Source of the DNA: Neoasaia chiangmaiensis
GTDB lineage: Bacteria; Pseudomonadota; Alphaproteobacteria; Acetobacterales; Acetobacteraceae
Assembly: GCF_002005465.1 (NCBI RefSeq)
Contig: NZ_CP014691.1
Coordinates: 682,001 to 746,000, forward strand
Direction of reading: 5' to 3'
DNA: 64,000 bases
Shown: positions 31,664-39,669 of the stretch, one piece after another
Layout: each line of letters begins with the position of its first letter
Numbering within the stretch: the first letter of the stretch is position 1
Notes under the pieces: generated by a model
Told to the model about the DNA's origin: nothing
Seen by the model: the letters and a program-made list of their open reading frames with translations, nothing else
Databases searched by the model: none
Program-made: the position numbers and the translations under genes

Positions 31664-32277
31664 ATAATCAGCCAGATCCGTCCACGACCGAACGCCTCGA
31701 TGCGCTCGTTCGCGAAGTCCGCGCCTGTCGCGTCTGCGCGGAACACCTACCTCTCGGCCCACGTCCTCTCATTCATGTTTCGACAAGGGCCCGTATCCTC
31801 ATTGCCAGTCAGGCACCCGGAACCAAGGCTCATCTGAGCGGGAAATCATTTTACGATCCCTCCGGCAATCGACTCAGGGAATGGCTGAATCTCACGTCGG
31901 AACAGTTCTACGACACGAGCAAGGTCGCCATCCTGCCCATGGGACTATGTTATCCCGGGCGTCTGCCGAATGGTGGGGACAGGCCACCCAGACCAGAATG
32001 TGCGCCAATATGGCGGGACCGTGTCCTGGCGCTTATGCCCAGCCTGCGATTAACCTTACTCGTTGGCAGCTACAGTCAGGCGCATGTGCTTGGTCGAGGC
32101 TCGGTTTCCGACCGTGTGGCGCATTTTCACGACTACCTCCCGCGCTACTTCCCTCTTCCACACCCGTCCTGGCGAACCGGGGTTTGGGAAAAGCGCGCAC
32201 CCTGGTTTCAGGCCGAGGTCATTCCCGCCTTGCGGACGATCGTGCACGATATTCTGAGTGACGACGATCAGGTGTGA
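31660..32277 (+). CDS. Uracil-DNA glycosylase family protein, probable Fe-S type
   Basis: Related to family 4/5 uracil-DNA glycosylases, which remove uracil from DNA. The 205-residue product has two N-terminal cysteines (CRVC, residues 23-26). Two more sit in GLCYPG and RPECAP, 16 residues apart, a pattern that fits a [4Fe-4S] cluster. Motif 1 reads SQAPGTKAH rather than the usual GEAPG, and the C-terminal motif is LPHPSWR. The altered motif 1 leaves glycosylase activity uncertain. The start overlaps thpR, so both are co-translated, joining an RNA-end and a DNA-base enzyme. The last ten bases overlap marC. Confidence 0.8.
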   Translation: MNNQPDPSTTERLDALVREVRACRVCAEHLPLGPRPLIHVSTRARILIASQAPGTKAHLSGKSFYDPSGNRLREWLNLTSEQFYDTSKVAILPMGLCYPGRLPNGGDRPPRPECAPIWRDRVLALMPSLRLTLLVGSYSQAHVLGRGSVSDRVAHFHDYLPRYFPLPHPSWRTGVWEKRAPWFQAEVIPALRTIVHDILSDDDQV

Positions 32278-32993
32278 TAAGTACGCCATTGCTGCGCGAC
32301 GTCATTGACGAAGCCTTCGATCCCCGAAAACAGAATCTGAATCCCGATGCATAAGAGGATAAGCGCCGCCAGCCGGCTGACGATGCGCGCGCCCGTAACG
32401 CCGAGCAATGCGACGATCCTCTCGGCATAGGCATAGACGATCCCGACCGTAACCGAGATGCAGATCACCGCCAGCGTCAGTCCCATGAAATAGGCTGGCC
32501 GGGGATCAACAGCCGGGCGTTCCGAGCTTAAGGCGATCGCCACCGAAATACTGCCGGGCCCGACAGTGAACGGCATCGCGAATGGAAAGAACGCCTTGTC
32601 CCGGAGATCCGGCGTTGCAACCGTGCGGCCTCCCTGCAACGCCTGCCGCTCCTTGCGGGCTTCGCTCTCTTCTGGCTCCTGCAGCATGCTCCAGGCTCGC
32701 GTAGCGACAACGAGACCGCCTGTCACACGCAATGCATTGATCGTGATACCGAAAAAAGTCAGAATCTCGCCGCCAAACCAGATCGAAACCATCAGGACGA
32801 CGAAAGAATAGAACGCCACCAGACGCGCGAGCGATACGACCTCCGGCCGCGCGCGCCCCATTGTCGCCTGCGCAAAGATCAGGGATGCGCCAAGGGGATT
32901 GACGATCGAAAACAGTGCCGAATACGCCATAAGCCAGATGGACGACACATATTGCAGGCCGATGTTTTCCGTTACGACATGCGAAGTGACCAT
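32268..32993 (-). CDS. MarC family integral membrane protein
   Basis: Six-helix inner-membrane protein of 241 residues, with FSIVNPLGASLIFAQAT in the first third and FPFAMPFTVGPGSISVAIAL in the middle, both typical for MarC/YhgN. The family was named for the mar locus but has no proven role in drug resistance. Its ATG shares a base with the mprF stop (TGATG), so it is translated after mprF. It is the last gene of the lysS-mprF-marC unit and converges on the glycosylase-like gene. Confidence 0.88.
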   Translation of the reverse strand: MVTSHVVTENIGLQYVSSIWLMAYSALFSIVNPLGASLIFAQATMGRARPEVVSLARLVAFYSFVVLMVSIWFGGEILTFFGITINALRVTGGLVVATRAWSMLQEPEESEARKERQALQGGRTVATPDLRDKAFFPFAMPFTVGPGSISVAIALSSERPAVDPRPAYFMGLTLAVICISVTVGIVYAYAERIVALLGVTGARIVSRLAALILLCIGIQILFSGIEGFVNDVAQQWRTYHT

Positions 32994-35080
32994 CAGCCCG
33001 AGCCGTCACGTGTCCGTATGTCAGACGCCACGAAGCGGTTCTGCCGCAATCCGCGCTGGATACGACGTTTCTCGCTGCTGAGAACCGCCTGTATGGCCTT
33101 GATATCTTGTGCCAGGCAGCAGAGCGTCCCGCCAATGCCTGCGCCATTCGGGCACACCGTCATCCCGATATCATGATAGACGCCGATCAACGATTGTCCC
33201 ACGCGAATGAAGGCCGGATGGCGCCCTTCCTGCAAGGCGAGATCGCGCAGGCGCCAGATCGCCGCGACACAGTCACGCTCCGCGCCCGCGGGATCGCCCA
33301 GTCCAATGATGAAACGGCCGGTTCGCAGGAATGGAATGCCCGCGCGCCCGCCTTCACCCAGCAGGAAGCCACTCGGACGACGGGGCCCCAACTCATCCAG
33401 CGCATGATCGAGCGACCGGTAGCAGAGTTCGCTCTCCTGATCCCAGGGGCGAATGGGGATGTGACCACGCCGCATCATCTGCCCGATCGCGATAAGGCCC
33501 AGGAGCGCGGAAATACCGAGTGCCCACCGCGCGACGGACGTATGCGCGTCGTAGATCAGGGAGCGCCACCACGCCTGCCCGAAATGACCGCGTAATGCAA
33601 AGAGGCCCACTGTCGCCAGGCTGAAGAACCATAACGTCACCGGCGCGATCATGCTGGGCCGCAAGGGCTCGACCAGCAGACGCGCCCTTCGGTAGTAACA
33701 GCCGCGAAACGGCGCGATCAGGAACATCACAAGCATGAGCGACAGCGGCACGCCGAGCGGCGCTTCCCGCAGCAGGACCAGAAGGATCGCAAATCCCAGC
33801 AGGCAAAGCGTCGCGCGCCAGGCCAACGTCACGCGCTGGGACAGGCCGATCGCCAGACCAACAAGCCCAACACCGACAAAGCAGAGCAGGAAGTCGGAAA
33901 ACTGCGGCAACCAGCGCCCGACGATGGATATCTGATACACGTGCGGCGGCACGAGAACGGCATAGAAGACCAGCAGAATGCCGGTCGCAGCGACGACCCC
34001 CGTTGCGACGGCAACCGAGAAATCCGCCTCGGATTCCCGGATCACCTGGCTCGGCCGACGCGGTCCACGATCGGGCGACGCAACACCACGCTTGCGCGCC
34101 AGAGCGGCGTCGCCACGCAGGAACAGTTCATGCCCCGCGAACATCAGCCCGGCGAGAATCAGGGGAATGATGTAGTAGAACAGCCGGAAAACGAGGATCG
34201 TGCCCAGAATACGCGAAGCTGGGAGATAGGGCCCGAGCGCCAGCATCATCGCACCGTCGAAAACGCCGAGACCGCCCGGAACGCTGGCTACCAGTCCCGC
34301 CGTATATGACGCGATATAGATCGCCAGAAACGCGCCAAACCCCATGGGCGTGCCACTCGGCAGAAGCACATAGGCGATCAACGCCGTGGCCGCCATATCC
34401 GCTGCACTGACAAAGACCTGTGCTATGGCAATTCCGATATGCGGCACATCGATCTGATAGCGCCCGACCCGGATTTCCCGCCAGCGCACCGCGGCACCGA
34501 TATAAGCCAGAATGGCCAGCCAGCTGGCAGCACCGGCGACCTGCAGGACGGCACGCGGCAGACGATCCAGCAGTGGAACATGCTCGGGCTCCAGCAGCAG
34601 AACGCCGCCGATCAGCGCAAGTGTTCCAAGGAGATACGTCGTCGAACAGAACGCGATGATCTGCGCAATCCCGCCGGCACTTACCCCCCAATTGCGATAA
34701 AGCCGGAAGCGTACCGCCGCTCCGGAAATCGCGGAACAACCGAGATTATGCGACAGTACATACGAGCAGAATGCCGCAAAAGCACTCCGCCGATAAGGCT
34801 GCCGCGCCTCAACGTGACGACATGCGAGATAGTCGTAAAACGTCAGGATGAAATAGGATAGCAGCGTGCATGCCGCGCCGAGCATCAGTGCGCGATCCGG
34901 TATCGCCCGCAACGCCGAGCGGACATCCGCGATCGACAGATGTCTGAGTTCGCGCTGGATGACGAAGAAGGCCGCGACAAGCAACACGATCCCCAACAGC
35001 GCCGGCAGACGATGCAACAGCATGCGTCCGCGCGATGCACGGTCGGGACAGGTCTTCACCTCAGGGGTGTCGGCCCGCAT
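32993..35080 (-). CDS. mprF: MprF-type lysyl-phosphatidylglycerol flippase with truncated synthase domain
   Basis: Membrane protein related to MprF/LpiA, which uses Lys-tRNA to make lysyl-phosphatidylglycerol and flips it outward. The N-terminal flippase region is complete, with SYVLSHNLGCSAISGAAVRF and ASVPGGLGVFDGAM, and about 14 helices run to residue 540. The cytosolic domain begins normally (FIIGLGDPAG, then RHPAFIRVG), but the protein ends after about 170 residues instead of about 330. The missing part includes the second GNAT half. The rest cannot be recovered by a frameshift, because marC occupies the next bases. The start at 35080 follows the lysS stop by four bases; an upstream frame to 35131 would overlap lysS. 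Synthase activity is doubtful. Confidence 0.8.
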   Translation of the reverse strand: MRADTPEVKTCPDRASRGRMLLHRLPALLGIVLLVAAFFVIQRELRHLSIADVRSALRAIPDRALMLGAACTLLSYFILTFYDYLACRHVEARQPYRRSAFAAFCSYVLSHNLGCSAISGAAVRFRLYRNWGVSAGGIAQIIAFCSTTYLLGTLALIGGVLLLEPEHVPLLDRLPRAVLQVAGAASWLAILAYIGAAVRWREIRVGRYQIDVPHIGIAIAQVFVSAADMAATALIAYVLLPSGTPMGFGAFLAIYIASYTAGLVASVPGGLGVFDGAMMLALGPYLPASRILGTILVFRLFYYIIPLILAGLMFAGHELFLRGDAALARKRGVASPDRGPRRPSQVIRESEADFSVAVATGVVAATGILLVFYAVLVPPHVYQISIVGRWLPQFSDFLLCFVGVGLVGLAIGLSQRVTLAWRATLCLLGFAILLVLLREAPLGVPLSLMLVMFLIAPFRGCYYRRARLLVEPLRPSMIAPVTLWFFSLATVGLFALRGHFGQAWWRSLIYDAHTSVARWALGISALLGLIAIGQMMRRGHIPIRPWDQESELCYRSLDHALDELGPRRPSGFLLGEGGRAGIPFLRTGRFIIGLGDPAGAERDCVAAIWRLRDLALQEGRHPAFIRVGQSLIGVYHDIGMTVCPNGAGIGGTLCCLAQDIKAIQAVLSSEKRRIQRGLRQNRFVASDIRTRDGSG

Positions 35081-35084
35081 GCGG

Positions 35085-36704
35085 TCAGCCCTGTTCCGTT
35101 TCCGCTGGCACCGCATCGCGCGCCAGCGCACCCTCGATCAGCGCCACCGTCTCCGGCAGACCGAACAACGCTGCGAAAATGCCGAAGCGCGGCCCCTCCG
35201 TCTGACCGAGCAGCACCTCATACAGGCAGCCGAACCACGAACGCAGCGGCTGGAACTGATGCCGCTTTCCAACCTCGAACACGATGTCCTGCACCTCGAC
35301 CGGCGAAAGCTTCGGGTCCGCCGCCGCCAGCGCTGCCGCAAGATCGGCCAACGCCGCACGCTCCTGTTCGGTCGGCGCGCGGAAGGTCTTTGCGGGTTTG
35401 ACGAATTCCTGGAAATAAACGACGGCATGCCGGACCAGACGATCCACATAGGAATGCGTCTCGGGCGACAACGACGGATCGTAGCGCTGCAGGAACTTCC
35501 ATAATGTCGAGGCCGAATTGGCATTGGCGACCGACGCCAGGTTCAGGAGGGCCGTGAAAGACACCGGACTGCTGTCCTGCGGCCGGATCTCGCCTCCATG
35601 GATGAACCATGCCGGATTGGCACGCAGCACCGTCTGCTCGCTCTCCGTCGCCGCCTTGTCGACATTGGCGATGTATTCATCCATGGCACGCGGAATAACA
35701 TCGAAAAACAGCCGCTTGGCACGGGTCGGCTGATTGAACATATACTGCGCCAGACTTTCGGGCGGCGCATAACGCAGCCAGTCCTCGATCGAAAGACCGT
35801 TGCCCTTGGACTTGCTGATCTTCTGCGCGTGCTGGTCCAGAAACAGTTCGTAGGTCAGGCCAGCCGGCGGCGCCTTACCCAGGATCCGGCAAATCCTGCT
35901 CGACAGCTTGACGCTGTCGATCAGGTCCTTGCCCGACATTTCGTAGTCGACACCCAGCGCATACCAGCGCATGGCCCAGTCGGCTTTCCACTGCATCTTC
36001 GCATGGCCGCCAAGCACGGACGTTTCAAAAGTCTCATCGCTGTCCGGGTCTTTCCACACAACCGTCGCGGCGATGGGGTCCACCTTCAGGACCGGCACCT
36101 GCATGACCCGCCCCGTTCTTGGATGAATCGGAAGAACCGGTGAATACGTGGCCCGACGTTCCGCGCCGAGCGTCGGTGCGATCGTCGCGACAACCTCATC
36201 ATGCACTTCAAGCATGCGGCGCAGTGCATCGTCGAAGCGACCGCCCGTGTAATAATCCGTCGCGGAAGCAAACTCATACTGGAAACCAAAGCCATCCAGG
36301 AATTCGCACAGCATGGCGTTGTTATGCGCGGCAAAACTATCGAAACGCCCGAAGGGATCGGGAATGCGCGTCAAGGGCAGCCCAAGATGCTGCGTCAGCA
36401 TCTCCTGATTGGGCACGTTGGTCGGAACTTTACGCAGCGCGTCCATGTCATCGGAAAATGCGAGCAGACGCGTGGAACGGCCCGTCAGCGCCTCATAGGC
36501 CTGGCGCACCCACGTTGTTCGCGCCACCTCGCCGAATGTGCCGATATGCGGCAAACCCGATGGGCCATAACCCGTTTCCAGGAGTGCCGGCCCGTCACCA
36601 CCGCGCGCATCCACATGCGCGACGATTTTTCGTGCTTCCTCGAAAGGCCAGGCTTTGGGCAGTGCGGCCTGATCGGCGGCGATTTTTTCTTCTATGCTGG
36701 ACAT
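35085..36704 (-). CDS. lysS: Class I lysyl-tRNA synthetase
   Basis: Charges tRNA-Lys with lysine. The archaeal-type class I enzyme is usual in alphaproteobacteria. The Rossmann HIGH-type motif is HIGT (residues 53-56, in GPSGLPHIGTFGE), and KISKSKGNG near residue 298 is the KMSKS loop. The length of 539 residues is normal. I placed the start at the ATG at 36704 (MSSIEEK); an ATG at 36737 is also possible and neither has a good ribosome site. It is the first gene of the unit with mprF, the enzyme family that consumes its product. Confidence 0.93.
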   Translation of the reverse strand: MSSIEEKIAADQAALPKAWPFEEARKIVAHVDARGGDGPALLETGYGPSGLPHIGTFGEVARTTWVRQAYEALTGRSTRLLAFSDDMDALRKVPTNVPNQEMLTQHLGLPLTRIPDPFGRFDSFAAHNNAMLCEFLDGFGFQYEFASATDYYTGGRFDDALRRMLEVHDEVVATIAPTLGAERRATYSPVLPIHPRTGRVMQVPVLKVDPIAATVVWKDPDSDETFETSVLGGHAKMQWKADWAMRWYALGVDYEMSGKDLIDSVKLSSRICRILGKAPPAGLTYELFLDQHAQKISKSKGNGLSIEDWLRYAPPESLAQYMFNQPTRAKRLFFDVIPRAMDEYIANVDKAATESEQTVLRANPAWFIHGGEIRPQDSSPVSFTALLNLASVANANSASTLWKFLQRYDPSLSPETHSYVDRLVRHAVVYFQEFVKPAKTFRAPTEQERAALADLAAALAAADPKLSPVEVQDIVFEVGKRHQFQPLRSWFGCLYEVLLGQTEGPRFGIFAALFGLPETVALIEGALARDAVPAETEQG

Positions 36705-36792: not shown

Positions 36793-39669
36793 ATGCCCCT
36801 GCCGCGCCATCGCTTTACCTCTCCCTATGACGCTCCGGCGCTGGTCGCGCATCGCGGCAAATCGTCCGTCCTGTCACCGGATGGCGAACTGCTCGATATC
36901 CCGAGCACCGACGTCGCGCGCCAGCTCGCGCAATGGGCGCCGCCTTTGATGGTCCATGGTCCAGCGACCTTCCGGTTCCTTGAAATGGGGTCACCTCCGC
37001 CGCCCGCCACCTACTTCGATCTGCTCGAATTATTTCTTTTCGTTTCACCGGCCACCAACGCCGCCCCGACGCCGCGCGGGCTTGCCTTGGCGCTCGCTAT
37101 TCCCGCCCCGGCACGAATCGAGGCGGATTTTCTCCACGTCATCCTGAACGCTCTCCTCGCCGCGCTTCGCACCCTGAGCGAAACACGCCATGGCGATACG
37201 ATGCGCGCCCTGCTACCGGCATTATCCCGCGCGGGCTGGCCCTGGGCAGGCGTAGTCGCGGAAACGATCGGCATGCCCGCCGATACATCGCTTCATCCTC
37301 TGGAAGCCCTACGGGTCTGGCGGCGGCTACCGAAGTGGGAAGAAACGGCGCCCAGACCCGCGCCGGGGAGCCAACCGGTGCCACAGGCCGCAGCGCGGGC
37401 GCGCTTGCGCGCGATGCTCGGCCCCGATGCCGAGGAACGTGCCGGACAGGCGGATTTCGCGTCAGTCGCCACAGCCGCCTTCGCACCACGACAGAATTTC
37501 GGCTCCCCGCACATTGTCCTGGCCGAGGCCGGCACGGGCACCGGCAAGACGCTGGGTTACGTCGCCCCGGCCAGCGTATGGGCCGAAAGCAACGGCGGCG
37601 CGGTCTGGATCAGCACCTACACCCGGCACCTTCAACGCCAGATCGAGCAGGAACTCCTCCGTCTTTATCCGGACGAAGCCGCCCGTCGGCGTGCCGTCGT
37701 GGTACGAAAGGGGCGCGAGAACTATCTCTGCCTCCTGAACATGGAAGACGCCGTCAACACCGCCGCTTCCCGTGGCGAGGCCGCGGGCACTGTCGTCATT
37801 GCCCTGTCGCTACTGGCGCGCTGGGCGGAAGCCACACAGGATGGCGACCTCATGGGAGGCGACCTGCCGGGCTGGTTCGGCGAACTCTTCGGCGCCGGAA
37901 CGGTCTTCGGCATGGCCGATCGGCGTGGCGAATGCATCCATGGCGCCTGTCCGCATTATCAGCGCTGCTTTGTCGAGCACACGATCCGCCGCGCGCGCGA
38001 CGCGGACCTCGTCGTCGCCAACCATGCGCTGGTCATGTCGCAGGCGGCCTGGAATGCGCTGGGGCAGGATGATGTCCCGGAAGAGGACAGCACACCCACG
38101 CGCTATGTATTCGACGAAGGCCACCATCTTCCAGACGCCGCCGACAGCGCGTTCGCCATAACCTTCTCCGGCGTGGAAGCCGCCGAACTGCGGCGCTGGC
38201 TGCTGGGCGCGGAAGGCAGCCGTTCACGCGCGCGCGGATTGCGCCGACGACTGGAAGATCTGGTCGCCGGCGTGCCCTCGCTGGAAACCCCACTGGACGC
38301 CGTGCTGCAAGCCGCACGCGCGCTTCCCGCTCCCGGCTGGCTGGCACGCCTTCACGAACCCGAAAACGCAGTCCGCGAACATGTGCCGGACACGATCGCC
38401 AATCCCTCGGAAATTTTCCTGCGCGCGCTGGACCAACAGGCGCGGGCGAGACAGGCTGCCAAGAAAGCCCAGGGCGACGCCGAATGCGAACTGCATCCCG
38501 TCGAACCTGCCGTCGCCGAAAGCGCCGAGGCCCTGTCCCGCGCGCTGGTCCGCCTGAGCGAGCCATTGGAAATTCTGGTCAAACGCCTGAAGGCCCAATT
38601 GACCGAGGAAACGGAAACGCTGGACGCCGCCACGCGCGGTCGGCTGGAAGCCACAATCCGCACCTTGCAGCGGCGGGCCATCAGCCGTGTCCACGGTTGG
38701 ATTTCAATGCTCGATGCCACGCGCACACCGCCAGAGCCGGGCACCACACCCGTTCACGTCGACTTCATCCGCACGGAAGCCATCGCGGGACGCGGCCCGC
38801 GCGCAAACGCCGAACGGGATGTCGGCCTGCATCGCCACTGGCTCGATCCGACAGTGCCCTTCGCGTCCGTCATGCAGGCGCCGGCCCATGGCATTCTGGT
38901 TACGTCAGCGACATTGCGCGACCAGACCGACAACGCGACGGGCGACGATCAGGAAACGGCCTGGGATGCTGCGGAGGCCCGTCTGGGTGCCACGCATTTT
39001 CCGGCGCCCGCGCTTCGCGCCGCGCTGATGAGTCCGTTCGATTACGCACGACAGACCCGCGCCTATGTCGTCTCGGACCTGCCGCGTGACGACATCGACG
39101 CCCTCGCCGCTGCCTATCGCACCCTGTTCCTTGCCGCCAATGGGGGCGCCCTGGGATTGTTCACGGCTATCGCGCGCCTGCGCGCCGTGCACAAGCGCAT
39201 CGCCGAACCGCTCGAAATGGCCGGCCTGCCTCTTTATGCACAGCATGTGGACGCCATGGACAACGCCACGCTGGTGGATGTCTTCAAGACCGAAATCGAT
39301 TCATGCCTGCTCGGCACGGATGCCATGCGGGATGGCGTGGACGTTCCGGGCAACGCCCTGCGCATGGTCGTGTTCGAGCGCACCCCGTGGCCCCGCCCGG
39401 ACATCCTGCATCGGGAGCGCCGCCTGCATCTGTCACATGGCGCACCGAACGAATACGATGATCGCCTCACACGCATGAAATTACGGCAGGCATTCGGGCG
39501 CCTCATTCGCAAAGCCACGGATCGTGGCGTTTTCGTCATGCTCGACCGGCGCATGCCGACCCGCCTCTTTTCGGCTTTCCCCGAAGGCGTCGACGTCCGG
39601 CGCCTGCCCTTTGACGAAGCGGTACGGGACATCGCCGCTTTCCTGCAATCCGGAGAAAACAACGCATGA
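36793..39669 (+). CDS. DinG/Rad3-like ATP-dependent DNA helicase
   Basis: Superfamily 2 helicase of 958 residues of the XPD/DinG group. Walker A GTGTGKT is near residues 247-253 and the DEGH box near 441-444. Four cysteines lie between them (LCLL, ECIHGACPH, QRCF), as expected for the [4Fe-4S] domain. Motif VI QAFGRLIRK is near the C-terminus. Residues 1-230 are an Ala/Pro-rich extension without a recognised domain. The alphaproteobacterial relatives of this length are thought to act in repair or R-loop removal. It overlaps the amidase gene by ATGA. Confidence 0.9.
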   Translation: MPLPRHRFTSPYDAPALVAHRGKSSVLSPDGELLDIPSTDVARQLAQWAPPLMVHGPATFRFLEMGSPPPPATYFDLLELFLFVSPATNAAPTPRGLALALAIPAPARIEADFLHVILNALLAALRTLSETRHGDTMRALLPALSRAGWPWAGVVAETIGMPADTSLHPLEALRVWRRLPKWEETAPRPAPGSQPVPQAAARARLRAMLGPDAEERAGQADFASVATAAFAPRQNFGSPHIVLAEAGTGTGKTLGYVAPASVWAESNGGAVWISTYTRHLQRQIEQELLRLYPDEAARRRAVVVRKGRENYLCLLNMEDAVNTAASRGEAAGTVVIALSLLARWAEATQDGDLMGGDLPGWFGELFGAGTVFGMADRRGECIHGACPHYQRCFVEHTIRRARDADLVVANHALVMSQAAWNALGQDDVPEEDSTPTRYVFDEGHHLPDAADSAFAITFSGVEAAELRRWLLGAEGSRSRARGLRRRLEDLVAGVPSLETPLDAVLQAARALPAPGWLARLHEPENAVREHVPDTIANPSEIFLRALDQQARARQAAKKAQGDAECELHPVEPAVAESAEALSRALVRLSEPLEILVKRLKAQLTEETETLDAATRGRLEATIRTLQRRAISRVHGWISMLDATRTPPEPGTTPVHVDFIRTEAIAGRGPRANAERDVGLHRHWLDPTVPFASVMQAPAHGILVTSATLRDQTDNATGDDQETAWDAAEARLGATHFPAPALRAALMSPFDYARQTRAYVVSDLPRDDIDALAAAYRTLFLAANGGALGLFTAIARLRAVHKRIAEPLEMAGLPLYAQHVDAMDNATLVDVFKTEIDSCLLGTDAMRDGVDVPGNALRMVVFERTPWPRPDILHRERRLHLSHGAPNEYDDRLTRMKLRQAFGRLIRKATDRGVFVMLDRRMPTRLFSAFPEGVDVRRLPFDEAVRDIAAFLQSGENNA

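Follow-up and report, generated by a model that had tools for sequence, protein, structure and literature searches.

Short MprF proteins beside a class I lysyl-tRNA synthetase gene in Neoasaia chiangmaiensis and its family: probable lipid flippases or scramblases with a lost synthase site

The MprF/LpiA proteins are bifunctional and combine a lysyl- or alanyl-phosphatidylglycerol synthase with a lipid flippase. In the mycobacteria, the LysX protein is a fusion of MprF, with an active synthase, and a class II lysyl-tRNA synthetase (LysRS). A related arrangement is found in a stretch of 64,000 nucleotides of Neoasaia chiangmaiensis ("the window": NZ_CP014691.1, positions 682,001 to 746,000, in a genome of one 3.41-Mb contig), where a short mprF gene is the middle member of a tight operon on the minus strand with the order lysS, mprF, marC. 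As in LysX (model NF002821) a LysRS and an MprF-type protein are joined genetically, but in Neoasaia the genes are separate, the LysRS is of class I and the synthase appears to be dead. We consider it likely that the protein has lost the synthase activity of MprF, has become fixed in the family next to lysS and acts as a lipid flippase or scramblase. HexF of Clostridioides difficile is likewise an MprF-like flippase without a lysylation domain; it belongs to a glycolipid operon and is described as homologous to the flippase domain only (PMC10128005), whereas the short MprF retains a seemingly inactive GNAT1 domain and lies beside lysS.

The short mprF gene (32993..35080, minus strand) encodes 695 amino acids (aa) counted from the ATG at 35080; the listed frame of 712 aa (P0001) opens at a GTG within lysS. 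The flippase membrane domain of MprF is present. Its first subdomain (P0001 residues ~43-331 according to the model helices; 34139..35005, minus strand) matches PF03706 above the cut-off at residues 45-326, and the structure predicted for the entire protein (mean predicted local distance difference test score, pLDDT, 81.5) matches six MprF entries from cryo-electron microscopy at Z scores of 28.4-31.1, with 9j8s_A at the top (Z 31.1, root mean square deviation 4.8, 550 aligned residues). MprF/LpiA (PDB 6lvf, 7duw, 9j8s, 9goe) is thus the best structural match, with the flippase domain, its gate residues and a portion of the domain interface in common, whereas the short form lacks the second GNAT domain, has lost the catalytic motifs, measures 638-714 instead of 790-871 aa in the translated loci and is located beside lysS.

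The dual-GNAT synthase domain is incomplete, with only GNAT1 recovered by profiles and structure alignments. The NCBIfam model bifunc_MprF is covered only at positions 4-622 of 841, with 339.6 bits against a cut-off of 600, so that the equivalog cut-off is not reached, and Pfam LPG_synthase_C is matched only at 28-99 of 298, with 24.1 bits and under the cut-off of 27.5. The remaining segment (P0001 residues 552-712; 32996..33478, minus strand) comprises GNAT1 and a C-terminal helix, MprF's second GNAT domain being missing. An earlier note on this DNA stated that the protein stops after about 170 residues of the catalytic domain and suggested a structure prediction of that part. Folded alone (pLDDT 85.7), the predicted strands and helices form a complete single GNAT domain; the second GNAT is indeed absent, but a simple cut-off is a poor description, since one whole GNAT is predicted.

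In structure alignments, which report only the first and last aligned residues, L-PGS (4v36) and the C-terminal model share 132 residues at 2.8 A and Z 14.3, model residues 9-143 being paired with chain residues 523-848. The alignments to the synthase crystal structures begin at GNAT1 and reach the final residues of the full-length domain, leaving out ~190 residues. FemA aligns likewise, model 8-126 being paired with chain 1-400, at a Z of 8.1, which is near background, and the single-domain GNAT 1y9k reaches Z 9.3 in a search in which values near 8 are common and in which fold families outside the listings may match as well. The last strand and helix of the short form can be read as standing in for the C-terminal ones of the full-length domain, and a structural equivalence is all that we claim. 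The superposition had suggested a clean internal deletion that kept the original C-terminus, an explanation that the tail sequence profile does not support: in seven of the 14 full-length synthase domains its top score falls on the beginning of GNAT2 (positions 132-137), for four of them with p < 0.05 relative to shuffles, and in no domain does it fall on the C-terminal segment.

In Staphylococcus aureus MprF the residues K547, K621, E624, D731, R734 and K806 are essential for lysyl-phosphatidylglycerol (lysyl-PG) synthesis (PMC2774229). We assigned them by motif spacing, to GDK, KLGE, DLMR and the FKxKF lysine. The aspartate and lysine of GDK are invariant in 14/14 full-length proteins and both are lacking in all 28 short forms; the KLGE lysine likewise occurs in 0/28, and the DLMR and FKxKF motifs, holding three of the essential residues, have gone along with GNAT2. 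In a second set of 48 rows only one has a K in the GDK-lysine column, and GDK is absent from the C-terminal part of 79 proteins out of 79. The presumed lysyl-tRNA site is the cleft between the two GNAT folds (PMC8131360).

Part of the docking surface has been retained. R456 and E611 (Rt numbering) belong to the interface of GNAT1 with the flippase (PMC8131360); in the 28 short forms the position of R456 is always R and that of E611 always D, D635 is found in 24, and the R456 and E611 positions are invariant in all 48 rows of the second set. In the flippase core R304, Y307 and P273 occur in 28/28 and the E280 position holds D or E in 28/28. In P0001 numbering, R316 and D630 are invariant residues. 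For the acetic acid bacteria, 1406 pairs that share branches and so are not independent give a median ratio of non-synonymous to synonymous substitution rates (dN/dS) of 0.284 for GNAT and 0.296 for the membrane region. With both near 0.3, the predicted GNAT1 is under purifying selection and is being maintained, not decaying.

The short form was traced in a family sample of 200 genomes (including that of Neoasaia), an order sample of 150 genomes, all of the same family, a class sample of 289 (64 with a match, four of these in the family) and a phylum sample of 299 (83 with a match, three in the family). A match to the Neoasaia protein is present in 185/200 family genomes and 148/150 order-sample genomes, counts that take in a few matches to the flippase subdomain only. 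Since the listed frames open at differing upstream points, lengths were taken from translated loci with starts chosen by rule: 52 intact loci (L002-L051, L053 and L055, L002 being the window) encode 638-706 aa and 79 of the 80 best named relatives 641-714 aa, the frame of the remaining one (L104) being broken, whereas 14 full-length loci (L052, L054, L056-L066, L071) encode 790-871 aa. The comparison of lengths in related genomes that the earlier note had proposed thus yields short homologues, of 638-714 aa, throughout the family. The named relatives are Asaia, Swaminathania, Gluconobacter, Acetobacter, Komagataeibacter, Saccharibacter and the like, genera that we take to belong to the Acetobacteraceae. 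An identical protein end occurs in L004 of the family set and in L073 (Swaminathania) of the named set, and for these two reasons we take the family to be the Acetobacteraceae. Judged by the predicted proteins, the short MprF is the usual form across the family and no local accident.

Outside the family the short form was not found in the class and phylum samples, a 532-aa frame with a weak match in genome G329 being left aside; matches that span the first flippase part and run into GNAT sit in frames of at least 841 aa. Seven frames of 550-714 aa from outside the family (L177, L178, L179, L182, L185, L186, L187) were rejected as short forms. They combine one membrane part with an LPG synthase that is carried to its end, as seen in five by Pfam (profile to 297) and in L185 and L186 by reading the DLMR and C-terminal motifs; as predicted proteins, keeping either the first or the second membrane part, they are the reverse kind of reduction. 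Six more frames from outside the family end shortly after the flippase part.

A full-length synthase is rare in the family. LPG_synthase_C matches 171/200 family genomes and reaches profile position 282-298 in 12, all of which have a second, short match; the remaining matches, among those listed, end at ~93-111. Ten named genomes, including Acetobacter fabarum, Gluconobacter oxydans and A. pasteurianus, have a single match that ends at 96-101. In a tree of the first flippase subdomain, made by a quick method and containing open forks, a single branch (Shimodaira-Hasegawa-like approximate likelihood ratio test 88) sets off the 28 short forms, which group with three subdomain-only proteins of one genus with support 99; the outgroup of transmembrane-only (TM-only) relatives is not one side of a branch. 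The tree includes five full-length copies from the family. They fall among the other full-length MprFs, so that in those genomes the full-length copy is a separate lineage and not the parent of the short form. For the short form itself the tree leaves both origins, derivation from a full-length MprF or an old single-GNAT branch.

The three subdomain-only proteins come from genus g68 (L067, L068, L169), where the gene still directly follows lysS but encodes no more than the first flippase subdomain (319 aa), a further natural reduction. In genome G134 (L069:2029-6452) the mprF match lies in two pieces ~2.5 kb apart, as though interrupted by an insertion.

lysS adjoins short mprF in 30 of the 31 nearest loci (the exception, L001, is a window piece that ends before lysS), in 22/22 deeper-branching loci and in 80/80 named loci. 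Measured on 134 loci, two of which retain just the flippase subdomain (L104 was left out), it precedes mprF on the same strand every time; the loci represent 117 distinct C-terminal sequences, some species being present in both collections. The first possible mprF start is at most 60 bases from the lysS stop in 129 of the 134 loci, with a median of 11. The 14 full-length mprF loci have no lysS within ~4 kb on either side. A comparison of neighbours in 22 deep and 68 named loci shows only three near-universal frames: lysS, mprF and one on the reverse strand that overlaps these two. marC lies beside mprF in 73/80 named loci, and in the neighbour comparison in 63/68 named against 0/22 deeper-branching loci; marC is part of the operon only in acetic acid bacteria. 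The clustering of lysS and mprF, which the earlier note had likened to LysX as functional, is therefore real and kept far beyond the window. The likeness holds for the adjacency; as regards channelling the parallel is weak, since the synthase residues for Lys-tRNA are gone and the adjacency cannot mean, by the known mechanism, that Lys-tRNA is channelled to a lysyltransferase.

These observations suggest the following mode of action. With GNAT2 and the aminoacyl-transfer site lost, lipid lysylation would be lost as well; the retained membrane domain would move lipids, GNAT1 would persist as a cytosolic module, docked on the flippase in the manner of the full-length protein, and the operon would serve co-expression with LysRS. 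Candidate cargoes would be bulk phospholipids or an aminolipid such as ornithine lipid. Bulk phospholipids are candidates because the Pseudomonas MprF (PaMprF) scrambles unmodified lipids, moving phosphatidylglycerol, phosphatidylcholine and phosphatidylethanolamine (PMC11980842). The earlier note had offered "flippase-only" as one of two possibilities, and this is the one that is supported, with homologues of the same length across the family and no second-GNAT partner found in the genome at the sensitivity used.

We also considered the lipid-binding pocket as proof of a lysyl-PG cargo. Lysyl-PG is contacted in the flippase by D234, R304 and Y307 (PMC8131360), and all three are conserved in the short forms. 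The proof was dropped, since 15 TM-only relatives, used as a control, have D or E in 14/15 and R and Y in 15/15 at the same positions; the pocket residues are consequently silent on a lysine cargo. What these relatives have in common with the short form is the first flippase subdomain and the pocket residues; neither the second membrane subdomain nor any GNAT is present in them, and the lysS-linked forms make up a separate group. We take these relatives to be of the UPF0104/YbhN type. YbhN is also named in PMC11980842. A search for a lysyl-PG hydrolase (PF06057) gave no match, but its controls were likewise without a match, so that it carries no weight.

The permanent company of lysS raises the question whether the retained GNAT could still transfer lysine to lipid, fed by LysRS or Lys-tRNA and with a mechanism other than that of MprF. 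The same-strand lysS in 134/134 loci and the completeness of a domain under purifying selection would fit, but the GDK and KLGE lysines and the GNAT2 motifs are absent, the only invariant non-glycine residues of the short-form GNAT domain (n=25) are W, R, D and Y, the D being at the flippase interface, and the linkage survives in a genus whose copy of the gene has lost the GNAT domain altogether. We regard such a transfer as improbable. Slightly less probable still is that a second protein provides the missing GNAT2 half in trans. The domains of S. aureus MprF are functional as separate proteins (PMC2774229), which makes the idea reasonable, and the earlier note allowed for a partner. None was found in the Neoasaia genome, however: there is no LPG_synthase_C match beyond the short one and the best genome match of a custom GNAT2 profile has an E value of 0.29 over 37 positions, so that a missing half encoded elsewhere has no support from either model. 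Moreover, a full-length synthase occurs in only 12 of the 200 family genomes, its five placed copies grouping with other full-length MprFs, and the retained half has lost its own catalytic residues too. Decay of the gene or an assembly artefact would agree with the separated pieces in L069 and the broken frame of L104, but is refuted by conservation, in view of the intact frames of similar length in 52 + 79 translated loci and a dN/dS of ~0.3, and we assign it a negligible chance.

That one specific lipid, e.g. ornithine lipid or another aminolipid, is moved rather than bulk phospholipid is a refinement of the flippase reading and not an alternative to it; we hold it as a possibility that falls short of being favoured. 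The Neoasaia genome contains an OlsB-like ornithine N-acyltransferase frame (L176:1111-2028; PF13444 above the cut-off, the OlsB models below theirs), and an organism carrying it may make ornithine lipid. For one acetic acid bacterium there is a report of unidentified aminolipids (PMC11493185), and a glycolipid has been put forward as the substrate that HexF flips (PMC10128005). On the other hand, the olsB-like gene is located elsewhere in the genome, with no link to mprF seen, and the Pseudomonas MprF is promiscuous (PMC11980842). A bold and doubtful extension would give the dead GNAT1 an interaction or sensing role through which lipid scrambling is coupled to LysRS or to the charging of Lys-tRNA, such that lysine supply would control membrane asymmetry while no lysine lipid is made.

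Several points weigh against a synthase-dead flippase. Lipid movement by the short MprF, although probable, is itself a prediction, and the TM-only control shows that the pocket residues do not set the short form apart. The N-terminal domain of S. aureus MprF on its own is reported to confer no peptide resistance (PMC2774229). The mapping of the S. aureus residues rests on motif spacing and not on an alignment with the S. aureus protein, and the KLGE glutamate is kept in 6/28 short forms (A in the Neoasaia protein). Six interface residues were compared in addition to R456. Only two of them, E611 (as D) and D635, persist in the short forms; D604 does not, and for R136, T145 and R639 neither the short nor the full-length group shows conservation. 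If lysine has no role, the lysS linkage has no account beyond co-expression with LysRS, which would be the plain answer. Finally, of two mprF transposon mutants of A. fabarum tested for persistence in Drosophila, mprF1 differed significantly from the wild type and mprF2 did not (PMC10269862), and insertions in mprF may have polar effects on marC.

The existence of these mutants indicates that the gene can be disrupted. Persistence of mprF1 was lower than that of the wild type, since nine of ten mutants with a significant effect had reduced persistence and the tenth concerned a different gene; the study lists the gene as phosphatidylglycerol lysyltransferase and discusses a lysyl-PG flippase (PMC10269862), although its catalytic part appears to be missing. 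In another strain, A. fabarum LMG 24244, the only LPG_synthase_C match is the short form, so the short gene is presumably the one that was mutated. If our reading is true, the presence of lysyl-PG cannot be taken for granted in acetic acid bacteria without a full-length MprF. The family also provides a naturally synthase-free MprF for the study of flipping separately from lysylation, including the question whether the flippase alone aids survival in insects. That lysS accompanies each of the short-form loci measured poses a clear and testable puzzle. No description of a family-wide synthase-less MprF or of a lysS-mprF operon in the Acetobacteraceae was found in the accessible text of the literature searched, PMC11630815 included, a scope outside which subscription journals mostly fall.

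As for the remainder of the operon, lysS (35085..36704, minus strand) encodes a class I LysRS of 539 aa (PF01921, E value 2e-121; NF001968 over its cut-off). Its stop codon is at 35085-35087 and the mprF ATG at 35080, which leaves a gap of four bases. mprF ends at 32993, where marC (32268..32993, minus strand; PF01914) overlaps it, starting inside a TGATG junction. The positions of the three genes, the gap and the junction are all as the earlier note had placed them. No match to the class II LysRS model in the genome passes the cut-off, the best one, in L173, being EpmA, and the class I LysS is the sole LysRS found there. That epmA gene (L173:358-2448; TIGR00462 above the cut-off) is divergent from a lysine-2,3-aminomutase-like gene, a pair that suggests beta-lysylation of elongation factor P. 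Divergent from lysS itself, at 36793-39669 of the window, is a frame of 958 aa that is related to the helicases DinG/YoaA and lies under the cut-offs of the helicase models.

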